This document shows positions 10,266 through 19,221 of a DNA stretch of 19,253 bases, one piece after another. The stretch is from Oscillospiraceae bacterium (GTDB lineage: Bacteria; Bacillota_A; Clostridia; Oscillospirales; Oscillospiraceae), in NCBI GenBank assembly GCA_015068175.1, contig SVLA01000021.1:1-19253 (forward strand), in the 5' to 3' direction. The position numbers and the translations under genes are program-made. Positions within the stretch are counted from its first letter, which is position 1; every line of letters begins with the position of its first letter. A model generated the notes under the pieces. It saw nothing but the letters and a program-made list of their open reading frames with translations. It searched no databases and had not been told where the DNA came from.

Positions 10266-11767
10266 ATGCCGCACGGGACCTATGAAGGCAGCGAACCTTA
10301 TATTTTTGTCAGCTATGCCCACAAGGATTCTGCCCGTGTTCTTCCTGTCATTGAGGGCCTCCAGGCCAAAGGCTTCCGGGTCTGGTATGATGCAGGCATC
10401 GAGGCCGGCACCGAATGGCCGGAGTATATCGCCGAGCATCTGATGGGTGCCAACTGTGTCATCGCCTTTATCTCCGAAAGCGCGCTGGAATCCCCAATTG
10501 CAGGCAGGAGATCTTCTTTGCCATGGATGAGCGCAAGCCCATACTGGTGCTGTATTTGGAAGACATCACACTCTCCCCCGGCATGCGGATGCGCCTGGGC
10601 TCTTTGCAGGCGCTGTATCGCTTCCGACACAAGACGGAAGAATCCTTCATCCAGGCATTGGCGGATGCCCGGATCCTGCAGCCCTGCCTGAATAGCGCTG
10701 TATCGGAGCCGACACCTGAAATTGTGCCGGAGATCATGCCGGAACCTGTGGCAGAACCTATACCGGATACCCTTCCGGAATCCGACAAGGCCCCGGATAT
10801 GGAAAAGGATCCCACCGAGACTGCCGTCACCCCGGAGGATGCCTATAAAAACGGCCGGGCCGCATATAATGCCCAGCAATACGAAGAAGCGGCCCGCTGG
10901 TACACCATCGCTGCCGAGGGTGGGCATGTGGAGGCGATGCGGCAACTGGCATACTGCTACAGTTACGGCCGGGGTGTTGCAACCGATTACAGCCTCTGCG
11001 TGCGGTGGTTTCGGGCTGCGGCGGAATTGGGCGATGCGGACAGCATGAAGGAACTGGCCTGGCGCTACGAGATCGGTAGTGGCATGAAGATGGACAAGGA
11101 GGCAGCCGTCCTTTGGTACCGCAGAGCCGCCGAAAAGGGGCACACTGTGGCCATGGGATATTTAGCCTCCTGCTACGAAAAAGGCAGCGGTGTGGCAAAG
11201 GATCTGAATGAAGCCATTCGCTGGCATCGGAAAGCAGCCGCAGCCGGGTACAGTTACTCAAGAGACCGGCTGAAGGCATTGGGATTTGATCCGTCTCCTG
11301 CAGCCTGCTTCGAAAAGGGCAAGCGGCTCTACGATGCCAAGGAATATGCTGAGGCGGTGGAATTCTTCCGTATTGCGGCGCAACAAGGTCACACGGACGC
11401 ACAGTACTATTTAGGTAACTGCTACTACACCGGCAAAGGTGTCGACAAGGATCCGGCCGAAGCCGCAAATTGGTACCGCAAAGCGGCCGGGCAGGGCCAT
11501 CCCGCCGCCCAATACGCCCTGGGTTTCTGCTATGCCCATGGTGCGGGCGTCAAGCAGAGTCATTCCATGGCATTGATGTGGTACAAAAAAGCGGCTGAAG
11601 CCGGCCATACAGCTGCGATCAACAGCGTAGCCTGGCACTATGCCTACGGCGGTGCCGCCGGTGTGAAGCGGAATAAGGAAGAAGCGATCCGCTTGTTTCT
11701 GATCAACGCAAACAAGGGCGACCAATACGCCATCCGGCAGCTTCGGGAACTGGGCTATAAGATTTAA
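10266..11767 (+). pseudogene. TIR-domain/Sel1-repeat protein gene 1, frameshifted
   Basis: Translation begins at ATG 10266 (GGAGGG seven bases upstream) with a bacterial TIR_2 domain: YIFVSYAHKD, VWYDAGIEAG and WPEYIAEHL, with Glu46 where TIR NADases carry their catalytic Glu. At a CCCC run (10492-10495) the frame is lost. The matching sequence (NCRQEI ... LGSLQALYRFRH) continues in the -1 frame up to the TAA at 11765-11767. Restoring one base gives 500 residues: TIR (about 10-141), a Pro/Glu-rich linker (142-189), then two solenoid modules. Each module is a TPR-like cap followed by three Sel1 repeats, ending in LKALGF and LRELGY. The intact paralogue downstream shows where the frame should run. 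It is either a decayed gene, a switchable allele, or a one-base assembly error. No canonical slippery heptamer was seen. Confidence 0.8.
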
Positions 11768-11797: not shown

Positions 11798-13843
11798 ATG
11801 GCATTCAACATCTACGAAGGCGGCGAGCCTTACATTTTCATCAGCTACGCACACCGGGACATGGACAAGGTCCTGCCCATCATCCGGGGTCTGCAGAGCC
11901 GGGGTTTCCGGGTCTGGTATGACGCCGGCATCGAAGCAGGTACCGAGTGGCCGGAGTACATCGCCGAGCATCTGGCCGGCTGCGCCACCGTCATCGCCTT
12001 CATCTCCCCCGCCGCCCTGGCTTCCCAGAACTGCCGCCGGGAGATCAACTTCGCCATTGAGCTGGGCAAGGACCCGCTGGTGGTATACCTGGAGTATGTG
12101 GAGCTGAGCCTGGGCATGCGGATGCAGTTGGGTTCCCTGCAGGCCATGTACCGCACCCGCCACGACAGCGACGAAAGCTTCCTGGATTCTCTGAGCAAGG
12201 CCCGCTGCATCCAGCCCTGCCTGGGTGCCGTCGCCGCCGCCCACGAGCCGATTTTCTCCGAGAAGTTCTTCCCCACCCTGAAGGATCCCGAAATGCCTGC
12301 TCAGGAAGCCTATGACGCAGGCGTCAGCGCCCATAACGCCGGCGATTATAACGAAGCCGTCCGGCTCTTCCGGATCGCCGCCGAGCAGTCCCACCCTGAA
12401 GGCACCTGCTTCCTGGGTTACTGCTACGAGTATGGCCAGGGCGTTCCCGCCGATCTGGGCGAAGCCTTTGCGCTGTACCGCCGGGCCGCCGAACTGGGTT
12501 CCGCTTCCGGCCAGCGAAATGTGGCTCTGTGCTATCAGAACGGCACCGGTGTGCCCAAGAATGACGGCGAAGCATACCGCTGGTTCAAGGCTGCCGCCGA
12601 CCAGGGCAGCATCTCCGCATTGAACGACCTGGGTCTGTGCTACGAGCGCGGCATCGGCGTAGCCAAAAATCTGGAAGAAGCCGTGAAATGGTACCGCAAG
12701 GGCGCCGAGGGCGGCAACAAGCATGCCCAGCGGAACCTGGCGCTGTGCTACAAGTATGGTACCGGCGTAGCCAAGAACCTGAACGAAGCATTCCACTGGT
12801 TCTCCCAGGCCGCCGAACAGGGTCTGGCCTCCGCCCAGTGCGACATCGGTCTGTGCTACGACGAGGGCCTGGGCGTTGCCAAGGATGAGGCTGAAGCCGC
12901 CCGCTGGTATCGCCGCGCCGCTGACAACGGCAGCGTCCACGCCATGCGGAACCTGGCCATCAGCTACAAATACGGCCAGGGCGTCACCAAGGATATTAAC
13001 GAAGCCGTGAAGTGGTACCGCAAGGCAGCCGAAAACGGCCTGGCTTCCGCCATGAACGATATGGGTCTGTGCTACGATAACGGCAACGGCGTGCCCAAGG
13101 ATGAAGCCGAGGCTGTCCGCTGGTACCGCAAGGGCGCTGAAGCCGGCAACATGCACGCACAGCGGAACCTGGCCATCAGCCTGAAGACCGGCTCCGGCTG
13201 CGTCAAGGACGAAGTGGAGGCCATGCATTGGTACCGCAAGGCGGCCGACCAGGGTCTGGCTTCCGCCATGAACGACATGGGCTTCAACTACGAGCATGGC
13301 ATTGGTGTCAGCGTGGATCTGTCCGCCGCCGTTTACTGGTATCGCAAGGGCGCTGAAGCCGGCAACATGCACGCACAGCGGAACCTGGGTCTGTGCTACC
13401 AGAACGGCCGCGGCACCGCCAAGAATCCCGGTGAGGCATTCCGCTGGTTCAAAAAGGCCGCCGAGCAGGGCAGCGTTTCCGCGCTGAACGACGTGGGTCT
13501 GTGCTATGACGAAGGCATCGGCGTTCCCAAGGATCAGGCCGAGGCCGTCCGCTGGTACCGCAGAGCCGCCGACGAAGGCAACCTCCACGCCACCCGGAAC
13601 CTGGGTCTGTGCTACAAGTACGGCACCGGCGTGCAGAAGGACCTGGCCGAGGCTGTCCGTTGGTTCCGCAAGGCCGCCGATCAGGGCTTCGCTTCCGCTC
13701 AGCACTCCCTGGCGCTGTGCTATGAAAACGGCGAGGGTGTGTCCAAGAGCATCACCGAGGCCGTCAAGTGGTACCGCAAGGCTGCCGCCCAGGGCAATCA
13801 GAAGTCCAAAGAGGCCCTGTCCCGCCTGGGTTACTCCCTGTAA
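11798..13843 (+). CDS. TIR-domain protein with 13 Sel1 repeats (gene 2, intact)
   Basis: A 681-residue cytoplasmic protein. The TIR_2 domain (about 10-143) contains YIFISYAHRD, WYDAGIEAG with the putative NADase Glu46, and WPEYIAEHL. After a short linker comes a cap helix pair (about 168-195) and 13 Sel1-like repeats of 36 residues (about 200-672), ending in LSRLGYSL. TIR domains of this type often consume NAD+ or make cyclic-ADP-ribose-like signals; Sel1 solenoids bind proteins. That this pair is a sensor-effector is inference. Repeats 2 to 13 alternate between an R-N-L-A/G type and an N-D-x-G type. Codons strongly favour C-ending, host-like choices, suggesting good expression. GGGAGG (11783-11788) lies 9 bases before the ATG, and the gene starts 30 bases after gene 1, so they are probably co-transcribed. 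Confidence 0.93.
   Translation: MAFNIYEGGEPYIFISYAHRDMDKVLPIIRGLQSRGFRVWYDAGIEAGTEWPEYIAEHLAGCATVIAFISPAALASQNCRREINFAIELGKDPLVVYLEYVELSLGMRMQLGSLQAMYRTRHDSDESFLDSLSKARCIQPCLGAVAAAHEPIFSEKFFPTLKDPEMPAQEAYDAGVSAHNAGDYNEAVRLFRIAAEQSHPEGTCFLGYCYEYGQGVPADLGEAFALYRRAAELGSASGQRNVALCYQNGTGVPKNDGEAYRWFKAAADQGSISALNDLGLCYERGIGVAKNLEEAVKWYRKGAEGGNKHAQRNLALCYKYGTGVAKNLNEAFHWFSQAAEQGLASAQCDIGLCYDEGLGVAKDEAEAARWYRRAADNGSVHAMRNLAISYKYGQGVTKDINEAVKWYRKAAENGLASAMNDMGLCYDNGNGVPKDEAEAVRWYRKGAEAGNMHAQRNLAISLKTGSGCVKDEVEAMHWYRKAADQGLASAMNDMGFNYEHGIGVSVDLSAAVYWYRKGAEAGNMHAQRNLGLCYQNGRGTAKNPGEAFRWFKKAAEQGSVSALNDVGLCYDEGIGVPKDQAEAVRWYRRAADEGNLHATRNLGLCYKYGTGVQKDLAEAVRWFRKAADQGFASAQHSLALCYENGEGVSKSITEAVKWYRKAAAQGNQKSKEALSRLGYSL
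12396..13815 (+). repeat. Tandem 36-residue (108-bp) Sel1 repeats with a 216-bp super-period
   Basis: Thirteen in-frame copies, recognisable by CYxxGxGV followed by KDxxEAVRWYRKAA. Odd members from repeat 3 to 11 carry N-D or C-D plus GLCYDEG; even members carry RNL plus ALCYKYG. The DNA is closely similar between like members (for example around 13130-13160 and 13350-13385, both encoding GAEAGNMHAQRNL), which suggests expansion by copying of two-repeat units. Confidence 0.8.
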
Positions 13844-14282: not shown

Positions 14283-16676
14283 ATGAAAAAGATCCTTTCG
14301 TTGCTGTTGGCAACCGTACTGATCATCAGTTGTTTCTCCGGCTGTAGCGAATTGCTGACACCGCCGGATACCGGCGGCTCCGACGATACCGCACCCCGGC
14401 CCACTGATCCCAGTACCGGTGAGCCTCTGCCCACCGACCCCAGCACCGGCTTGCCCACTGACCCCAACATCCCGGTCCAGCAGGGCAACATCACCATCAA
14501 TGAGGTGATGCCGGACAACAAAAAACTGGTCCTGGGGCACGAACTGGACTGGATCGAGCTGTATAATGCCGAGGATGTGGATGTGAGCCTCCATGGCTAC
14601 TACCTGGCCGATAATCCTGAAAACACCACAGAATTGCCGCTGTCCGGCTTGACGATCCCGGCAAAGGGCTACCTGGTGATCACATTGGATGAAGCGTCTT
14701 CCTTCCGGCTCTCCGCCGACGGCGAAACGGTTTATTTGTTCCGCAGCGGCGAGGTAGTGTCTCAGCTTACTTACGGCTTGGCGGAGCATGGCGAATCCTT
14801 TGATGCCAACGGCATCTGCGCCTACCCCACCCCCGGTTACCCCAATAACGAAGAAGGCTACATGGCTTACCTGGAAAGTCTGACTCTGCCGGAGCTGATC
14901 ATCAGCGAGGTCATCTCTTCCAATTCCAAGTACCTGCCGGTAAACGGCACCTGCTATGATATGGTGGAAATCCGTAACAATTCCGACCATCCCATCGATC
15001 TGTCCGAGTATACGCTGTCCGACAAGCGCAGCGAGCCTGCCCGATATTCCTTCCCCGCGGTGACCCTGCAGCCCGGCGAATACTTCATCGTCTACTGCTC
15101 CGGTATGCCAACTTTGGGTAAGGACCACACCACCTTCAAGCTCAGCGCCGACGGTGAGACCGTGTATCTGAGCAAGAACGGCACACTGACCGATGTGGTC
15201 ACCGTTCCCGCCAATCTGCAGAAAAATGAAAGCTATGGCCGTGTGGGCAACATTCTCATGTACTTCCCCACCCCCACCTTCGGTGCGGACAACACCGTTG
15301 GCCACCTGACCGGCGTGGCGGTTCCCCAGGCGAACCTGCCCTCCGGACTTTACGGCGAAGCCGTCACCATCACCCTCAGCGGTGATGGTGACATTTACTA
15401 CACCACCGACGGCAGCCGCCCCACCACCGCTTCCACGAAGTATACCAACCCCATTGTGATCGATAAGGCCACCACCATCCGTACCTTTGTGGTCAGCGGC
15501 GAGCGGATCAGCCTCACAACCGCCTATACCTATATCATCGGCGCGGAGCATGACCTGCCGGTGGTGTCCATTTCCATCCCCCAGGAATATCTCTCCGGCG
15601 ACAAGGGCATATTGAACCATCCGGAGGAAACCTACGAATACGAAGCTGTGCTGACCTTATTGGAGGACGGCCGGGAAAAATTCTCCGTTCCCTTCGGTTT
15701 CCGCCTCCACGGCAACGACAGCCGCAAGGAACCCAAGCAGAATTTCCAGCTTCGTTTCCGCTCCGAATACGGCGTCAGCGAACTGAACTACAAAGTTTTT
15801 GAGGAGCTGGATATCACTTCCTTCAATTCCCTGCTGCTGAAGGGCGGCAGCGAGGACTGGTACGGCTCCATCATCCGTGACGAGATGGCCACCGCCATCG
15901 TCACAGGCACCACCAATCTGTATACCCAGGCCATCAAGCCCGTGGTGCTGTACCTGGGCGGCGAATACTGGGGTGTGTACTTCATTCGGGAGCGGTTCAG
16001 CGATGATTATGTGGCCAGCCATTTTGATGTGTCCACGGAATCCGTGGATCTGCTGTATTCCTCCGGCGGCTATGTGCAGAACGGCTCCAGCAAGGACTTC
16101 CAGGCCCTGAAGAAGTTCTGCCAGAACAACGATATGTCCAAGGAAGAAAATTACGAATACCTCTGCTCCCAGATCGACGTGCTGAGCCTTATTGACTGGT
16201 ACGTCTGCCGCAGTTACATGGGCGACAAAGACATTGCCAACATCCGCCGGTTCCGCACCTCAGAAGGCGACGGCAAGTGGCGCTGGATGTTCTTCGATAT
16301 GGACTGGTGTTTCATCCATACCACCGACGACCCCATCACCTCCATTATGGCCAAGAGCGGTGAGAATGTTCTGATGAAGGCAGTTCTGAAGAGCAAACAG
16401 GGCCGGGAGACCTTCCTGAAACGCTGTGCGGAGCTGCTGAAAGAGACCCTGAACGAAGAATACATCACCAGCGTGATCGATTCTCTGGCAAAGGCCATCG
16501 ATTCCGAAATGACCCGGGACCGGGAACGCTGGGGCTACAGCTACAAACATTGGCAGAACAAGGTGCAGAAGCTGCGGGATTACGTGGCCGATGGCGCCCG
16601 GACCAAAAATTTCCTGCGGGATCTGCAGGACTACTTTGATCTGTCCGATGCGGAAATGGAATCCTACTTTGGATAA
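14283..16676 (+). CDS. Surface lipoprotein with lamin-tail domains and CotH-kinase domain
   Basis: 797 residues, ATG at 14283 after AAGGAAG. The lipoprotein signal peptide ends in lipobox FSGC (Cys21), followed by a short PTDPSTG repeat linker (39-61). Domains in order: lamin-tail domain (about 69-170, ITINEVMPD ... DWIELYN), a second lamin-tail domain (about 203-290, LIISEVISS ... YDMVEIRN), a chitobiase/Fn3-like domain (about 345-415, DIYYTTDGSRPT), and a CotH kinase fold (about 422-690). The last carries the RLHGNDSR, LYLGGEYWGVYFIRE and FFDMDW motifs. CotH was described in Bacillus spore coats as a protein kinase, but secreted CotH-lamin-tail proteins are widespread in non-spore contexts in gut Clostridia. 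The substrate here is unknown. It stands alone, with its own promoter and terminator. Confidence 0.88.
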   Translation: MKKILSLLLATVLIISCFSGCSELLTPPDTGGSDDTAPRPTDPSTGEPLPTDPSTGLPTDPNIPVQQGNITINEVMPDNKKLVLGHELDWIELYNAEDVDVSLHGYYLADNPENTTELPLSGLTIPAKGYLVITLDEASSFRLSADGETVYLFRSGEVVSQLTYGLAEHGESFDANGICAYPTPGYPNNEEGYMAYLESLTLPELIISEVISSNSKYLPVNGTCYDMVEIRNNSDHPIDLSEYTLSDKRSEPARYSFPAVTLQPGEYFIVYCSGMPTLGKDHTTFKLSADGETVYLSKNGTLTDVVTVPANLQKNESYGRVGNILMYFPTPTFGADNTVGHLTGVAVPQANLPSGLYGEAVTITLSGDGDIYYTTDGSRPTTASTKYTNPIVIDKATTIRTFVVSGERISLTTAYTYIIGAEHDLPVVSISIPQEYLSGDKGILNHPEETYEYEAVLTLLEDGREKFSVPFGFRLHGNDSRKEPKQNFQLRFRSEYGVSELNYKVFEELDITSFNSLLLKGGSEDWYGSIIRDEMATAIVTGTTNLYTQAIKPVVLYLGGEYWGVYFIRERFSDDYVASHFDVSTESVDLLYSSGGYVQNGSSKDFQALKKFCQNNDMSKEENYEYLCSQIDVLSLIDWYVCRSYMGDKDIANIRRFRTSEGDGKWRWMFFDMDWCFIHTTDDPITSIMAKSGENVLMKAVLKSKQGRETFLKRCAELLKETLNEEYITSVIDSLAKAIDSEMTRDRERWGYSYKHWQNKVQKLRDYVADGARTKNFLRDLQDYFDLSDAEMESYFG

Positions 16677-17519: not shown

Positions 17520-17999
17520 TTACAGCGACCGGAACAGCAACACGACCAGCCATAGGATGATGACGACAAGCAATGCCAAAATCAGCTTTGGGATCACCAT
17601 AACCCGGGATCCCGTTTTCGACTCATGCTTTTCCTTCCTCTTCCCATAGCTGACCGGCACTGCAGGGGCAGGTGCAGGCTTCGGGGTAAGTTGCGTCGCA
17701 TGGCGGTACTGTGTCAGGGGATCCGTACCTTCCATGATCCTTCGATGGAAGTCCTCCAACCATAGTTCATCCTCGTCACTGCACATATTGCGCTCATCGC
17801 AGTCTGTCTCATGGGCGATCTGGTTACGGATCCAGCGATAGTTCTTCAGCTTTTTCAGATCATTTTCCCAGCCGGGAACCCGCCAGACCGCACCCGGGAT
17901 CCGACTCATCTCCTCGATATAGGCAGATATTCCGCGACCGTTTTTCATAATATCAGCGCAAAGCCGATCCAGCCGCTTATATGCTTCCATGAATCCCAT
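17520..17999 (-). CDS. Small C-tail-anchored protein with HEPN-like R-x4-H motif (function unknown)
   Basis: 159 residues from ATG 17999, chosen because AAGGAG lies 8 bases upstream and a good promoter precedes it; the frame is open another 60 codons upstream but that part overlaps the promoter and a terminator. The N-terminal part (1-95) is helical, with a W-x-R-N-Q-I-A-H-E stretch giving Arg58-x4-His63, the arrangement of HEPN domains that in many toxins and defence proteins forms an RNase site. A Pro/Ala linker (about 105-117), a basic patch (119-130) and a single membrane helix (134-156) follow, so the helical domain should face the cytoplasm. It sits 47 bases before the ZIP transporter gene. 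The HEPN assignment is by motif and predicted helices only. Confidence 0.75.
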   Translation of the reverse strand: MGFMEAYKRLDRLCADIMKNGRGISAYIEEMSRIPGAVWRVPGWENDLKKLKNYRWIRNQIAHETDCDERNMCSDEDELWLEDFHRRIMEGTDPLTQYRHATQLTPKPAPAPAVPVSYGKRKEKHESKTGSRVMVIPKLILALLVVIILWLVVLLFRSL

Positions 18000-18032
18000 G
18001 GACTCAACTCCTTCGGTGAATGTCTTTCCTCC

Positions 18033-18061
18033 GTTATACCACAATTGGCCGGGAAGTTCAA
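18033..18061 (-). promoter_or_regulatory. Promoter of the HEPN-like/ZIP operon
   Basis: Minus-strand TTGAAC (18056-18061), 17-base spacer, TATAAC (18033-18038), 33 bases before the ATG at 17999. Confidence 0.7.
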
Positions 18062-18074
18062 TCTTTTTCATCGG

Positions 18075-18115
18075 AAAAAGTAAGGATCCCGAATGCAACG
18101 CATCCAGGATCCTTG
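18075..18115 (-). terminator. Intrinsic terminator of the AT-rich gene
   Basis: Perfect 8-base arms AAGGATCC/GGATCCTT (18082-18089 and 18107-18114) enclose a second nested ATGC/GCAT pairing. On the minus strand a run of five T (18079-18075) follows two bases after the stem. It lies 61 bases after the stop of the AT-rich gene. Confidence 0.75.
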
Positions 18116-18128
18116 CCTTAAACGAGTG

Positions 18129-18169
18129 AAAAGGTGTCTGAACATAGGTAAAAGCGAACAAAAGGTGTC
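18129..18169. repeat. Pair of 10-base direct repeats
   Basis: AAAAGGTGTC occurs at 18129-18138 and 18160-18169, 31 bases start to start, between the stop of the AT-rich gene and its terminator. Short repeats of this kind occur near ends of some insertion sequences, but no transposase is present. Confidence 0.45.
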
Positions 18170-18175
18170 CAAAGG

Positions 18176-18619
18176 TCATTCTTCAATCAAAGCTTTTCCT
18201 TCTTTTTCATTTTCATCAATAATATAAATAAAACAATTTTCAAATTGATTTGAATAAGATTCACCTGTTTTAAGCTTTTCAGGGAAGTAGTTATATTTTA
18301 TTACTACTGATAATTGATTCGGCAATGATTTTACCGTTAATGGTGCAAAGTCGTATGGCGAATCAGTATTATTGTGAGCGTGAGTGCCATCTTGCGTTGA
18401 ATCATATACAATTATTGAGTTGCCACAAGGACAAACAGCTTTTAGAATTAACTGTCCATTTTTCTTGATAATAAAAGGAGCGAAAATGCCTCTTGTTTGT
18501 TTGCCTGTATGTGAGAATTCAAAATTCGAACATCCGCAAGTACATTGCAACTTCGCGGACAAGGAAACGCCATTGTGTTCTTTTACATCTTTTATGTAAT
18601 CAAGTATTCTTAACTTCAT
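18176..18619 (-). CDS. AT-rich gene for a cysteine-motif (possible zinc-ribbon) protein, function unknown
   Basis: 147 residues, not recognised. CTCGC (Cys26, 28, 30) and CPCG (Cys63, 65) could form two knuckles of a metal-binding ribbon; the rest is beta-rich with an acidic tail (IDENEKEGKALIEE). There is no signal peptide or membrane segment. The ATG at 18619 follows AAGGGAG at 7 bases. The base composition is strikingly unlike the rest of the window: the 60 bases 18181-18240 contain only 12 G or C. This points to recent transfer. The gene is enclosed by a terminator on one side and the hairpin array on the other, and has its own promoter. Confidence 0.78.
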   Translation of the reverse strand: MKLRILDYIKDVKEHNGVSLSAKLQCTCGCSNFEFSHTGKQTRGIFAPFIIKKNGQLILKAVCPCGNSIIVYDSTQDGTHAHNNTDSPYDFAPLTVKSLPNQLSVVIKYNYFPEKLKTGESYSNQFENCFIYIIDENEKEGKALIEE

Positions 18620-18640: not shown

Positions 18641-18669
18641 ATTATTTTATATTTTGTAAGGTAATTCAA
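18641..18669 (-). promoter_or_regulatory. Promoter of the AT-rich gene
   Basis: Minus-strand TTGAAT (18664-18669), 17-base spacer, AATAAT (18641-18646). It lies 27 bases from the first hairpin of the array. Confidence 0.6.
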
Positions 18670-18696
18670 GAGCTTTGTGCATCCTCGCTTCCCAAT

Positions 18697-18848
18697 CACG
18701 CCGTAAGGCGTGTATATCATCCTGTTCCGCAGGAACGGTATATCATCAACACGAAGTGTTCCTTCATATGTCGAAGGCATATATCATCGCTCGCAGAGCG
18801 ATATCATATCGAAGATATATCACCCGTTCCGAAAGGAACAGATATCAT
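18697..18848 (+). repeat. Array of seven small hairpins with ATATCAT spacers and C-GN(N)A-G loops
   Basis: Hairpins, with loop and stem: 18697-18712 (GTAA, 6 bp), 18722-18738 (GCA, 7 bp with one G-T), 18748-18760 (GAA, 5 bp), 18766-18782 (GAA, 7 bp with one G-T), 18788-18800 (GCA, 5 bp, extendable to 7), 18806-18818 (GAA, 5 bp), 18826-18839 (GAAA, 5 bp). Stem sequences all differ, but the spacer ATATCAT recurs at 18714, 18740, 18781, 18801 and 18842, with ATATCAC at 18817. On the plus strand every loop starts with G, ends with A and is closed by C-G. No ORF runs through it. Function unknown. Confidence 0.85.
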
Positions 18849-18892
18849 TGAAAAAAGTCACCTTTGTCGGTAGACAAAGGTGACTTTTTTCA
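18849..18892. terminator. Terminator of tRNA-Ser(UGA), 20-bp perfect stem
   Basis: Perfect 20-base arms (18849-18868 and 18873-18892) around loop GGTA. Six T end the arm on either strand, so it can work both ways. It follows the tRNA CCA directly and shuts off the hairpin array from tRNA transcription. Confidence 0.9.
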
Positions 18893-18981
18893 TGGCGGAG
18901 AGTGTGAGATTCGAACTCACGGTGGGTCGCCCCATCACCAGTTTTCAAGACTGGCTCCTTAAACCGCTCGGACAACTCTCC
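18893..18981 (-). tRNA. tRNA-Ser(UGA)
   Basis: 89 bases including an encoded CCA. Acceptor arm GGAGAGT pairs with ACTCTCC. The anticodon stem-loop is CCAGT-CTTGAAA-ACTGG, giving anticodon TGA. The long class-II variable arm and the TTCGAAT T-loop are present. Confidence 0.95.
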
Positions 18982-19129: not shown

Positions 19130-19221
19130 GGAGTGATACCCAAGAGGCCGAAGGGGCTCCCCTGCTAAGGGAGTAGGCGTCTAAAAAGCGCGCGAGGGTT
19201 CAAATCCCTCTCACTCCGCCA
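19130..19221 (+). tRNA. tRNA-Ser(GCU)
   Basis: 92 bases including an encoded CCA. Acceptor arm GGAGTGA pairs with TCACTCC. The anticodon stem-loop is CTCCC-CTGCTAA-GGGAG, giving anticodon GCT. A long variable arm is present. It is divergent from tRNA-Ser(UGA). A hairpin start (TTTTGTC ... GACAAG) follows and is cut by the window end, probably its terminator. Confidence 0.95.

Follow-up and report, generated by a model that had tools for sequence, protein, structure and literature searches.

A hairpin array behind a tRNA-Ser gene is a rearranged copy of a dispersed two-armed element that contains the Rfam family Gut-1

Introduction

The RNA family Gut-1 (RF01706 in Rfam) was reported in 2010 by Weinberg et al. 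(PMC2864571), where it is classed as certainly RNA, probably not cis-regulatory and present in the human gut only; the passages of that survey dealing with Gut-1 give it no role. This was the only paper found that names Gut-1 together with Rfam, or that names RF01706, in a search that covered mainly open-access papers. Within that scope, no article was found that calls Gut-1 a repeat or links it to tRNA genes or terminators. At the level of DNA, GNA loops are described as giving very stable mini-hairpins (Yoshizawa 1997 and Hirao 1994, as cited in PMC6479982).

Here, we analyze a hairpin array on contig SVLA01000021.1 of an Oscillospiraceae bacterium; "the window" refers to the whole stretch of DNA that was analyzed, 19,253 nucleotides in length. 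In related gut MAGs, the Gut-1 match is one arm, a fragment of a larger palindromic and dispersed element with two arms.

Results

The hairpin array and its relation to Gut-1

Scanning of positions 18650-18900 recovered the spacers reported in a preliminary description of this DNA, five copies of ATATCAT (starting at 18714, 18740, 18781, 18801, and 18842) and one ATATCAC (18817). The seven hairpins that it listed were also found, with the plus-strand loops GTAA, GCA, GAA, GAA, GCA, GAA, and GAAA, every one closed by C-G. The fourth hairpin (18766-18782, in our own framing) requires one G-T wobble, and a strict stem script returned at this place an alternative stem with a 7-nt loop. Folding of positions 18690-18850 gave a z-score of -6.4 as plus-strand DNA and of -6.2 as minus-strand RNA, with 0 of 200 shuffles as good in each case.

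On the minus strand, positions 18776-18850 match the full Gut-1 model (1-77) with 59.9 bits, for a cut-off of 50. Readings as integron attC, STAXI or riboswitch were considered as well; above the Rfam cut-off, the window contains Gut-1 and two tRNAs only. The array therefore belongs to a described family, where the preliminary description could name none. Of the counter-evidence envisaged there, a match to a family already described and with a known role, the first part was found, while no known role was found for Gut-1. The parts of the window copy and its surroundings, read from the tRNA gene onward, are as follows.

18893..18981, minus strand: tRNA-Ser(TGA), directly upstream of the element (ARAGORN; Rfam tRNA match at 18896-18981)
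18849..18892, minus strand: 20-bp perfect hairpin with A and T tracts, the element's first hairpin and probable tRNA terminator (stem search; missed by the preliminary description)
18835..18845, minus strand: 5′ strand of helix P1, minus-strand ATATCTGTTCC (sequence; family covariation)
18826..18839, minus strand: left-arm hairpin H1 (stem search; alignment to orthologues)
18806..18818, minus strand: left-arm hairpin H2 (stem search; orthologue alignment)
18786..18802, minus strand: left-arm hairpin H3 (stem search; orthologue alignment)
18766..18782, minus strand: left-arm hairpin H4, with one wobble pair in the window and perfect in locus L158 (sequence; alignment)
18776..18850, minus strand: Rfam Gut-1 match, 59.9 bits (Rfam scan)
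18758..18765, minus strand: P1′ remnant, GAAGGAAC (orthologue alignment)
18697..18760, minus strand: three more hairpins (18697-18712, 18724-18736, 18748-18760) in left-arm sense, replacing the usual right arm
18641..18669, minus strand: weak promoter-like site TTGAAT-17-AATAAT behind the array
18176..18619, minus strand: ORF (147 aa) beyond the array, for which Pfam gave no match at 0.001

The hairpin at 18849-18892 looks like a terminator and is probably that of the tRNA-Ser gene. The P1 5′ strand (18835..18845) can pair locally, within H1, or with P1′, the window P1 having 7 nt paired. Hairpin H2 shows a double change, T-A to C-G, between the window and locus L017. Beyond the P1′ remnant (18758..18765), the window diverges from its orthologues; this copy is rearranged, with its right arm lost or replaced, and is perhaps immobile. 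Two promoter-like sites were counted for a mean of 0.8 in shuffles, which is by itself no evidence.

Among the neighbors, a DUF6548 protein (17523-18179, minus strand) overlaps the 147-aa ORF, and a second tRNA-Ser (GCT) lies nearby on the other strand (19130-19221, plus). Further away, the plus strand encodes a CotH kinase protein with lamin tail domains (14283-16673) and two similar-looking neighboring ORFs (10415-11767 and 11798-13843), the second with a TIR domain and 13 Sel1 repeats.

Distribution of the family

Relatives were collected with the neighboring ZIP protein as query, and the best 80 of 562 loci were retained, in Oscillospiraceae and Clostridia MAGs mostly from ruminant gut. 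Among 30 genomes hand-chosen from those of these 80 loci, 23 contained a Gut-1 match, 19 of them over the cut-off, with a maximum of 74 matches in one genome. The occurrence of Gut-1 in ruminant-gut MAGs departs from the published human-gut-only range. In the order of genome G012, Gut-1 was found in 50 of 117 genomes at E 1e-5, with 42 over the cut-off, and a scan of the phylum at E 1e-6 detected it in at least 3 of 348 genomes (G012, G047, which is also in the order set, and G186), a lower bound since the scoring took in only 13 candidates per genome. The distribution seems patchy and confined to certain lineages. The counts in the 30 genomes and in the order bear out the earlier suggestion of a modular dispersed repeat. 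When the window and loci L001-L080 were scanned for hairpin arrays in general, the output was mostly noise.

In the viral_contigs set, the spacer pattern occurred in at least 120 stretches, of which 10 arrays, located in 8 loci, passed a strict hairpin filter. By eye, the arrays of L272, L302, L309, and L340, on contigs classed as viral, look Gut-1-like and may be prophage-borne or host DNA at a prophage edge; those of L236 and L310 do not resemble the family. Carriage by phages or plasmids was considered as a reading and set aside. One exact right-end pattern had 0 matches in viral_contigs, and one full copy used as query gave no plasmid match. A different copy matched in part (47% of the query, 75.6% identity) a single unannotated phage record from human feces.

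Anatomy of the full element

Gut-1 matches often occur as opposite-strand pairs about 20 nt apart. The full element consists, in order, of a first hairpin, which is terminator-like behind tRNAs, a left arm (H1-H4), the strand P1′, and a right arm of three hairpins in opposite sense. The P1 strand at the start of the left arm has the choice between local pairing (H1) and pairing with P1′ behind H4. The end hairpins share a common core in one orientation. Not every copy is two-armed.

The spacers recur about every 17-22 nt, with words such as GTGAAAT in the left arm and ATTTCAC in the right arm, and the word varies between elements (GTGAAAT, ATGATAT, GTGATGT, GCGATAT, TCGATAT, and others). In a blind word test, the right spacers were reverse complements of the left ones in 39 of 60 elements, where shuffling gave 27.3 on average and 33 at most, the 21 misses being partly copies without a right arm, the window copy included. 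The two arms mirror each other, so that the two strands look alike. The window array is part of this larger element. In genome G006, family A copies (L127:13655, L128:2467) have left arms and the common first hairpin followed by other repeats (ATTATTCATTATTCA; GCAAAAAGCCCCCC stretch), which indicates that composite repeats occur.

Placement behind tRNA genes

Placement was quantified in genomes G005, G012, and G014, where 84 Gut-1 matches form 63 groups. Thirteen of the 63 elements lie 35-48 nt behind a tRNA gene on the same strand and 0 in the opposite sense, for a chance expectation of about 0.05; the other 50 have no listed tRNA upstream, some of them being at contig ends. Conversely, 13 of the 104 tRNA genes of these genomes are followed by an element. 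The host tRNAs in the loci include Tyr, Thr, Ser, Cys, His, Arg, Asn, Trp, Leu, Ala, and Gln. By crude ORF calls, 17 of 59 elements lack an upstream ORF within 300 nt; of the 42 that have one, 29 lie on its strand.

The window shares the tRNA-Ser(TGA) site with related copies of G014 and G017, and G005 has a close copy behind a tRNA-Thr gene. The terminator stems at this site differ in sequence between L164, L017, and the window and still pair perfectly. In the Gly-Arg-His cluster, L089 and L175 carry the element in the Arg-His gap, whereas L085 has it after His and none in that gap; this is presence or absence across species and not a strict empty site. The preliminary description had set the array between a foreign-looking gene and a tRNA gene. 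The closest partner of the array is the tRNA gene with its terminator.

By eye, other repeat-like sequence unrelated to Gut-1 follows tRNA terminators around position 1290 of L089 and behind the tRNA-Gly of L086 (CTCGAAGATCT...). In some copies, the right flank is apparently complementary to the tRNA T-arm.

Copies inside terminators

In G006, near-identical copies stand in unrelated flanks with a sharp left border, which by eye follows an NYA flank. Of five G006 copies of one kind, that of L135 diverges before the right end. The element ends are conserved in several genomes; a search of 23 chosen genomes recovered a 94-base right end in 9 of them, in some weakly. On either side of this form with conserved ends, the host flanks make up an inverted repeat carrying A and T tails, a split terminator, with 13 bp perfect by eye in L210. 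For a test of flank pairing, 22 right-end places were taken, of which 9 without a recognized left end were dropped and 13, several of them from one genome, were kept. Their scores were 14, 14, 14, 13, 12, 11, 10, 8, 8, 8, 8, 6, and 6; a score of at least 8 was reached by 11 of 13 versus 31 of 156 swapped flanks, and at least 10 by 7 of 13 versus 6 of 156. One score of 6 (L129) comes from a misplaced left border, the same element, as L090, scoring 12 in a wider scan. Most scores of that scan (52 elements) were not above shuffles, so the split-terminator form is a subset. The copies inside a host hairpin are 223-413 nt long.

The near-identical copies in unrelated flanks and the split terminators support mobility, and the element is probably mobile. 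A search for an empty site with joined flanks found no orthologue (one strict search, 2 genomes of the genus), no target-site duplication was seen by eye, and a common terminator word had 0 matches in the loci. The right end at G012:C4:17258-17350 is 94% identical to the G006-derived query in the MAG of a different species, by recent transfer or as a misbinned contig.

The preliminary description had advised looking for linked recombinase genes; none was found among Y1 transposases (PF01797), the only family examined. Of the 117 genomes, 36 have PF01797, namely 18 of the 50 that carry Gut-1 and 18 of the 67 that do not. PF01797 thus shows no association with Gut-1, although MAG incompleteness weakens the negatives. 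Genomes G005, G012, and G014 carry many Gut-1 copies and no PF01797 match. A Y1/RAYT transposase was accordingly dropped as partner. By eye, the GTAG/GTGG tag located 5′ of REP hairpins is not constant in the listed flanks, which mostly end NYA (e.g., CCA, TTA).

Covariation of two exclusive helices

Sixty-four elements with, by construction, a P1 of at least 6 bp were taken, among which 40 distinct P1 sequences were counted. In the 56 elements with at least 8 bp, P1 has a mean of 10.8 bp with its own partner versus 5.8 with shuffled partners (maximum 6.6), a gap partly built in by the selection of elements for a long P1. Alignment A1 contains 32 rows: 30 of 49, selected for a P1 of at least 9 bp, a set length and differences from one another, to which L106 and the window copy were added. 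In A1, 98.6% of 350 P1 cells are paired with double changes in 10 of 11 pairs, and the covariation score is 0.705 versus 0.235 shuffled (0 of 500 as high), a value inflated by row choice. Although H1 was not a criterion for the rows, 98.9% of its 185 cells are paired with double changes in 5 of 6 pairs; its score is 0.871 versus 0.302 shuffled, with 0 of 500 for the score, whereas the counts of pairs and of pair types are not above shuffles. Sliding the partner by one base lowers both signals. One set of bases thus covaries with each of two partners whose pairings exclude each other. The shuffles leave the relatedness of copies in, and the resemblance of the H1 3′ strand to P1′ makes conversion between them possible.

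In the minimum-energy fold of the full L106 copy, the left spacers pair with the right ones whether it is folded as DNA (z-scores of -6.1 and -6.0 for the two strands) or as RNA (-5.7). Both the P1 helix statistics and the covariation of P1 and H1 agree with the earlier claim that the fold is kept rather than the sequence.

Loops and wobble pairs

Like GNA, the GNNA loop belongs to the stable hairpin rules of DNA. Among 200 distinct spacer-flanked units, 184 have loops of 3-4 nt, 171 of these with C-G closure. With stems of at least 5, C-G closure is found in 124 of 127 loops; 42 of 72 triloops are GNA and 38 of 55 tetraloops are GNNA. In background hairpins (stems of at least 6, both strands counted), GNA accounts for 41 of 1420 and GNNA for 34 of 1498. 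The DNA mini-hairpin rule noticed in the window thus holds across the family. The third base of GNNA is a purine in 20 of 38 loops, i.e., with no GNRA preference, and the loops on Rfam's strand are neither UNCG nor GNRA. Over 1213 pairs in 206 units, G-T pairs number 21 on the GNA strand and 8 on Rfam's strand, and other mismatches 58, partly from wrong framing. Loop and wobble statistics lean toward DNA, short of proof, or at the least away from Rfam's strand; DNA and RNA are not told apart by folding energy, both being equally significant.

Discussion

These comparisons place a known Rfam fragment within a dispersed two-armed element of terminators; its anatomy, its dispersal, its placement at tRNA genes and terminators and its covariation, with two mutually exclusive helices, are established by the sequences. 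We interpret the window array as the left arm and rearranged end of such an element, selected as folded single-stranded DNA, with a probability of about 0.55. The element sits at transcription terminators, with tRNA genes as favored hosts, and since its first hairpin is terminator-like, the upstream gene would still end. Selection may act on single-stranded DNA in its folded state, as exposed during replication or as an extruded cruciform; in this state, both arms would form C-GNA-G hairpins and the left spacers would pair with the right ones. A putative recombinase could recognize this fold and place copies in or beside terminator hairpins. The window copy would be a long-standing resident of the tRNA-Ser(TGA) site, with its right arm replaced. 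We give the single-stranded DNA mechanism itself about even odds. More tentatively, and with rather more doubt than belief, Gut-1 may be the recognized portion of a novel type of mobile DNA in which the fold is inherited and not the sequence, with inverted arms, a spacer word changing in concert and a three-strand switch, moved as single-stranded DNA by a putative recombinase into terminator loops and behind tRNA genes.

The main rival to the DNA reading is a role as RNA, in which Gut-1 would be a structured transcript produced when tRNA terminators and others are read through, and the alternative pairing in H1 or P1 would serve as a switch or as a platform for protein binding. The Gut-1 passages of Weinberg et al. 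classify it as certainly RNA (PMC2864571), P1 and H1 covary strongly, the left arm lies on the strand of the upstream gene in 13 of 13 tRNA cases and, by crude ORF calls, in 29 of 42 ORF cases, and the RNA fold (z -5.7) is as significant as that of DNA. We nevertheless consider this role unlikely, as a perfect hairpin of terminator type stands between the tRNA and many of the copies, the loops are neither UNCG nor GNRA on Rfam's strand and are GNNA without purine preference on the other, wobble pairs are scarce and rarer on Rfam's strand, the mirrored arms make each strand alike, and copies split host terminators. BIMEs are palindromic arrays behind highly transcribed genes, where they bind gyrase or other proteins and relieve supercoils. 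A similar chromosomal or transcription-end function (gyrase or other protein binding, supercoil relief, insulation), with movement only incidental, would fit the position behind tRNA genes, the orthologous copies at one tRNA-Ser site in three genomes and the recurrence of spacers about every 17-22 nt; it seems quite unlikely given the patchiness in the order (50 of 117), the presence of the element at only 13 of 104 tRNA genes and the bursts of near-identical copies at protein genes in G006.

Two further explanations appear very unlikely. A non-autonomous element moved by a Y1 transposase of the IS200/IS605 or RAYT type, REPIN-like or PATE-like, would account for the inverted hairpin arms, the end hairpins with a common core in the same orientation and the left border, sharp by eye, after an NYA flank. 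It is disfavored by the distribution of PF01797 (18 of 50 genomes with Gut-1 versus 18 of 67 without, as far as incomplete MAGs allow), by the copy-rich genomes G005, G012, and G014 that lack a match, and by the GTAG tag not being seen. Old decaying interspersed repeats, devoid of present function and kept where insertion is harmless, are suggested by the truncated copies and the rearranged copy of the window, to which one must oppose the compensatory helix changes and the C-G closure of 124 of 127 loops, both of which need selection or constant renewal by movement.

Listed since 2010 as RNA, Gut-1 gains a genomic setting at terminators and tRNA ends, a full anatomy and a DNA-level reading. 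If this reading is true, intrinsic terminators can serve as targets in the form of folded DNA, and a mobile element is able to exchange its sequence and yet retain its structure, which would hide it from ordinary repeat searches. It also carries the warning that covariation alone is no proof of RNA.

Group IIC introns, among others, target terminators, inserting beside the stem and encoding a ribozyme; they share with this element the use of terminator hairpins as sites, while the copies described here are inside the hairpin. Prokaryotic MITEs, in the aspects compared (PMC10969869), are also small, non-coding, and dispersed, with transcripts that fold strongly; unlike them, this element inserts in terminator loops, and no parent insertion sequence was found (PF01797 only). 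The BOX, RUP, and SPRITE repeats of Streptococcus pneumoniae, as characterized in the relevant passages of PMC3049150, are similarly short, structured, mobile-looking intergenic repeats that insert into one another, BOX with a variable inner array between end modules and SPRITE terminator-like and near gene ends. Compared by description, BOX keeps its module sequence, whereas here the stem and spacer sequence turns over and the fold stays; those passages mention no loop rule, inverted arms or link to tRNA for these repeats. REP, BIME, and REPIN sequences with RAYT, as presented in the corresponding parts of PMC6006769 and PMC3733652, are inverted pairs of extragenic hairpins in many copies and arrays, and two hairpin units in inverted orientation are present here too, as opposite-strand paired matches. 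They differ from this element by its several hairpins per arm and its lack of association with Y1. Finally, the Gut-1 RNA, as depicted in the sections of PMC2864571 devoted to it, a three-hairpin stretch with UGAAAU-type spacers and CUUCG-type loops, is by score the family of the window; there it is a non-coding RNA of the human gut, and here the arm of an element of ruminant-gut MAGs, tied to tRNA genes and terminators.
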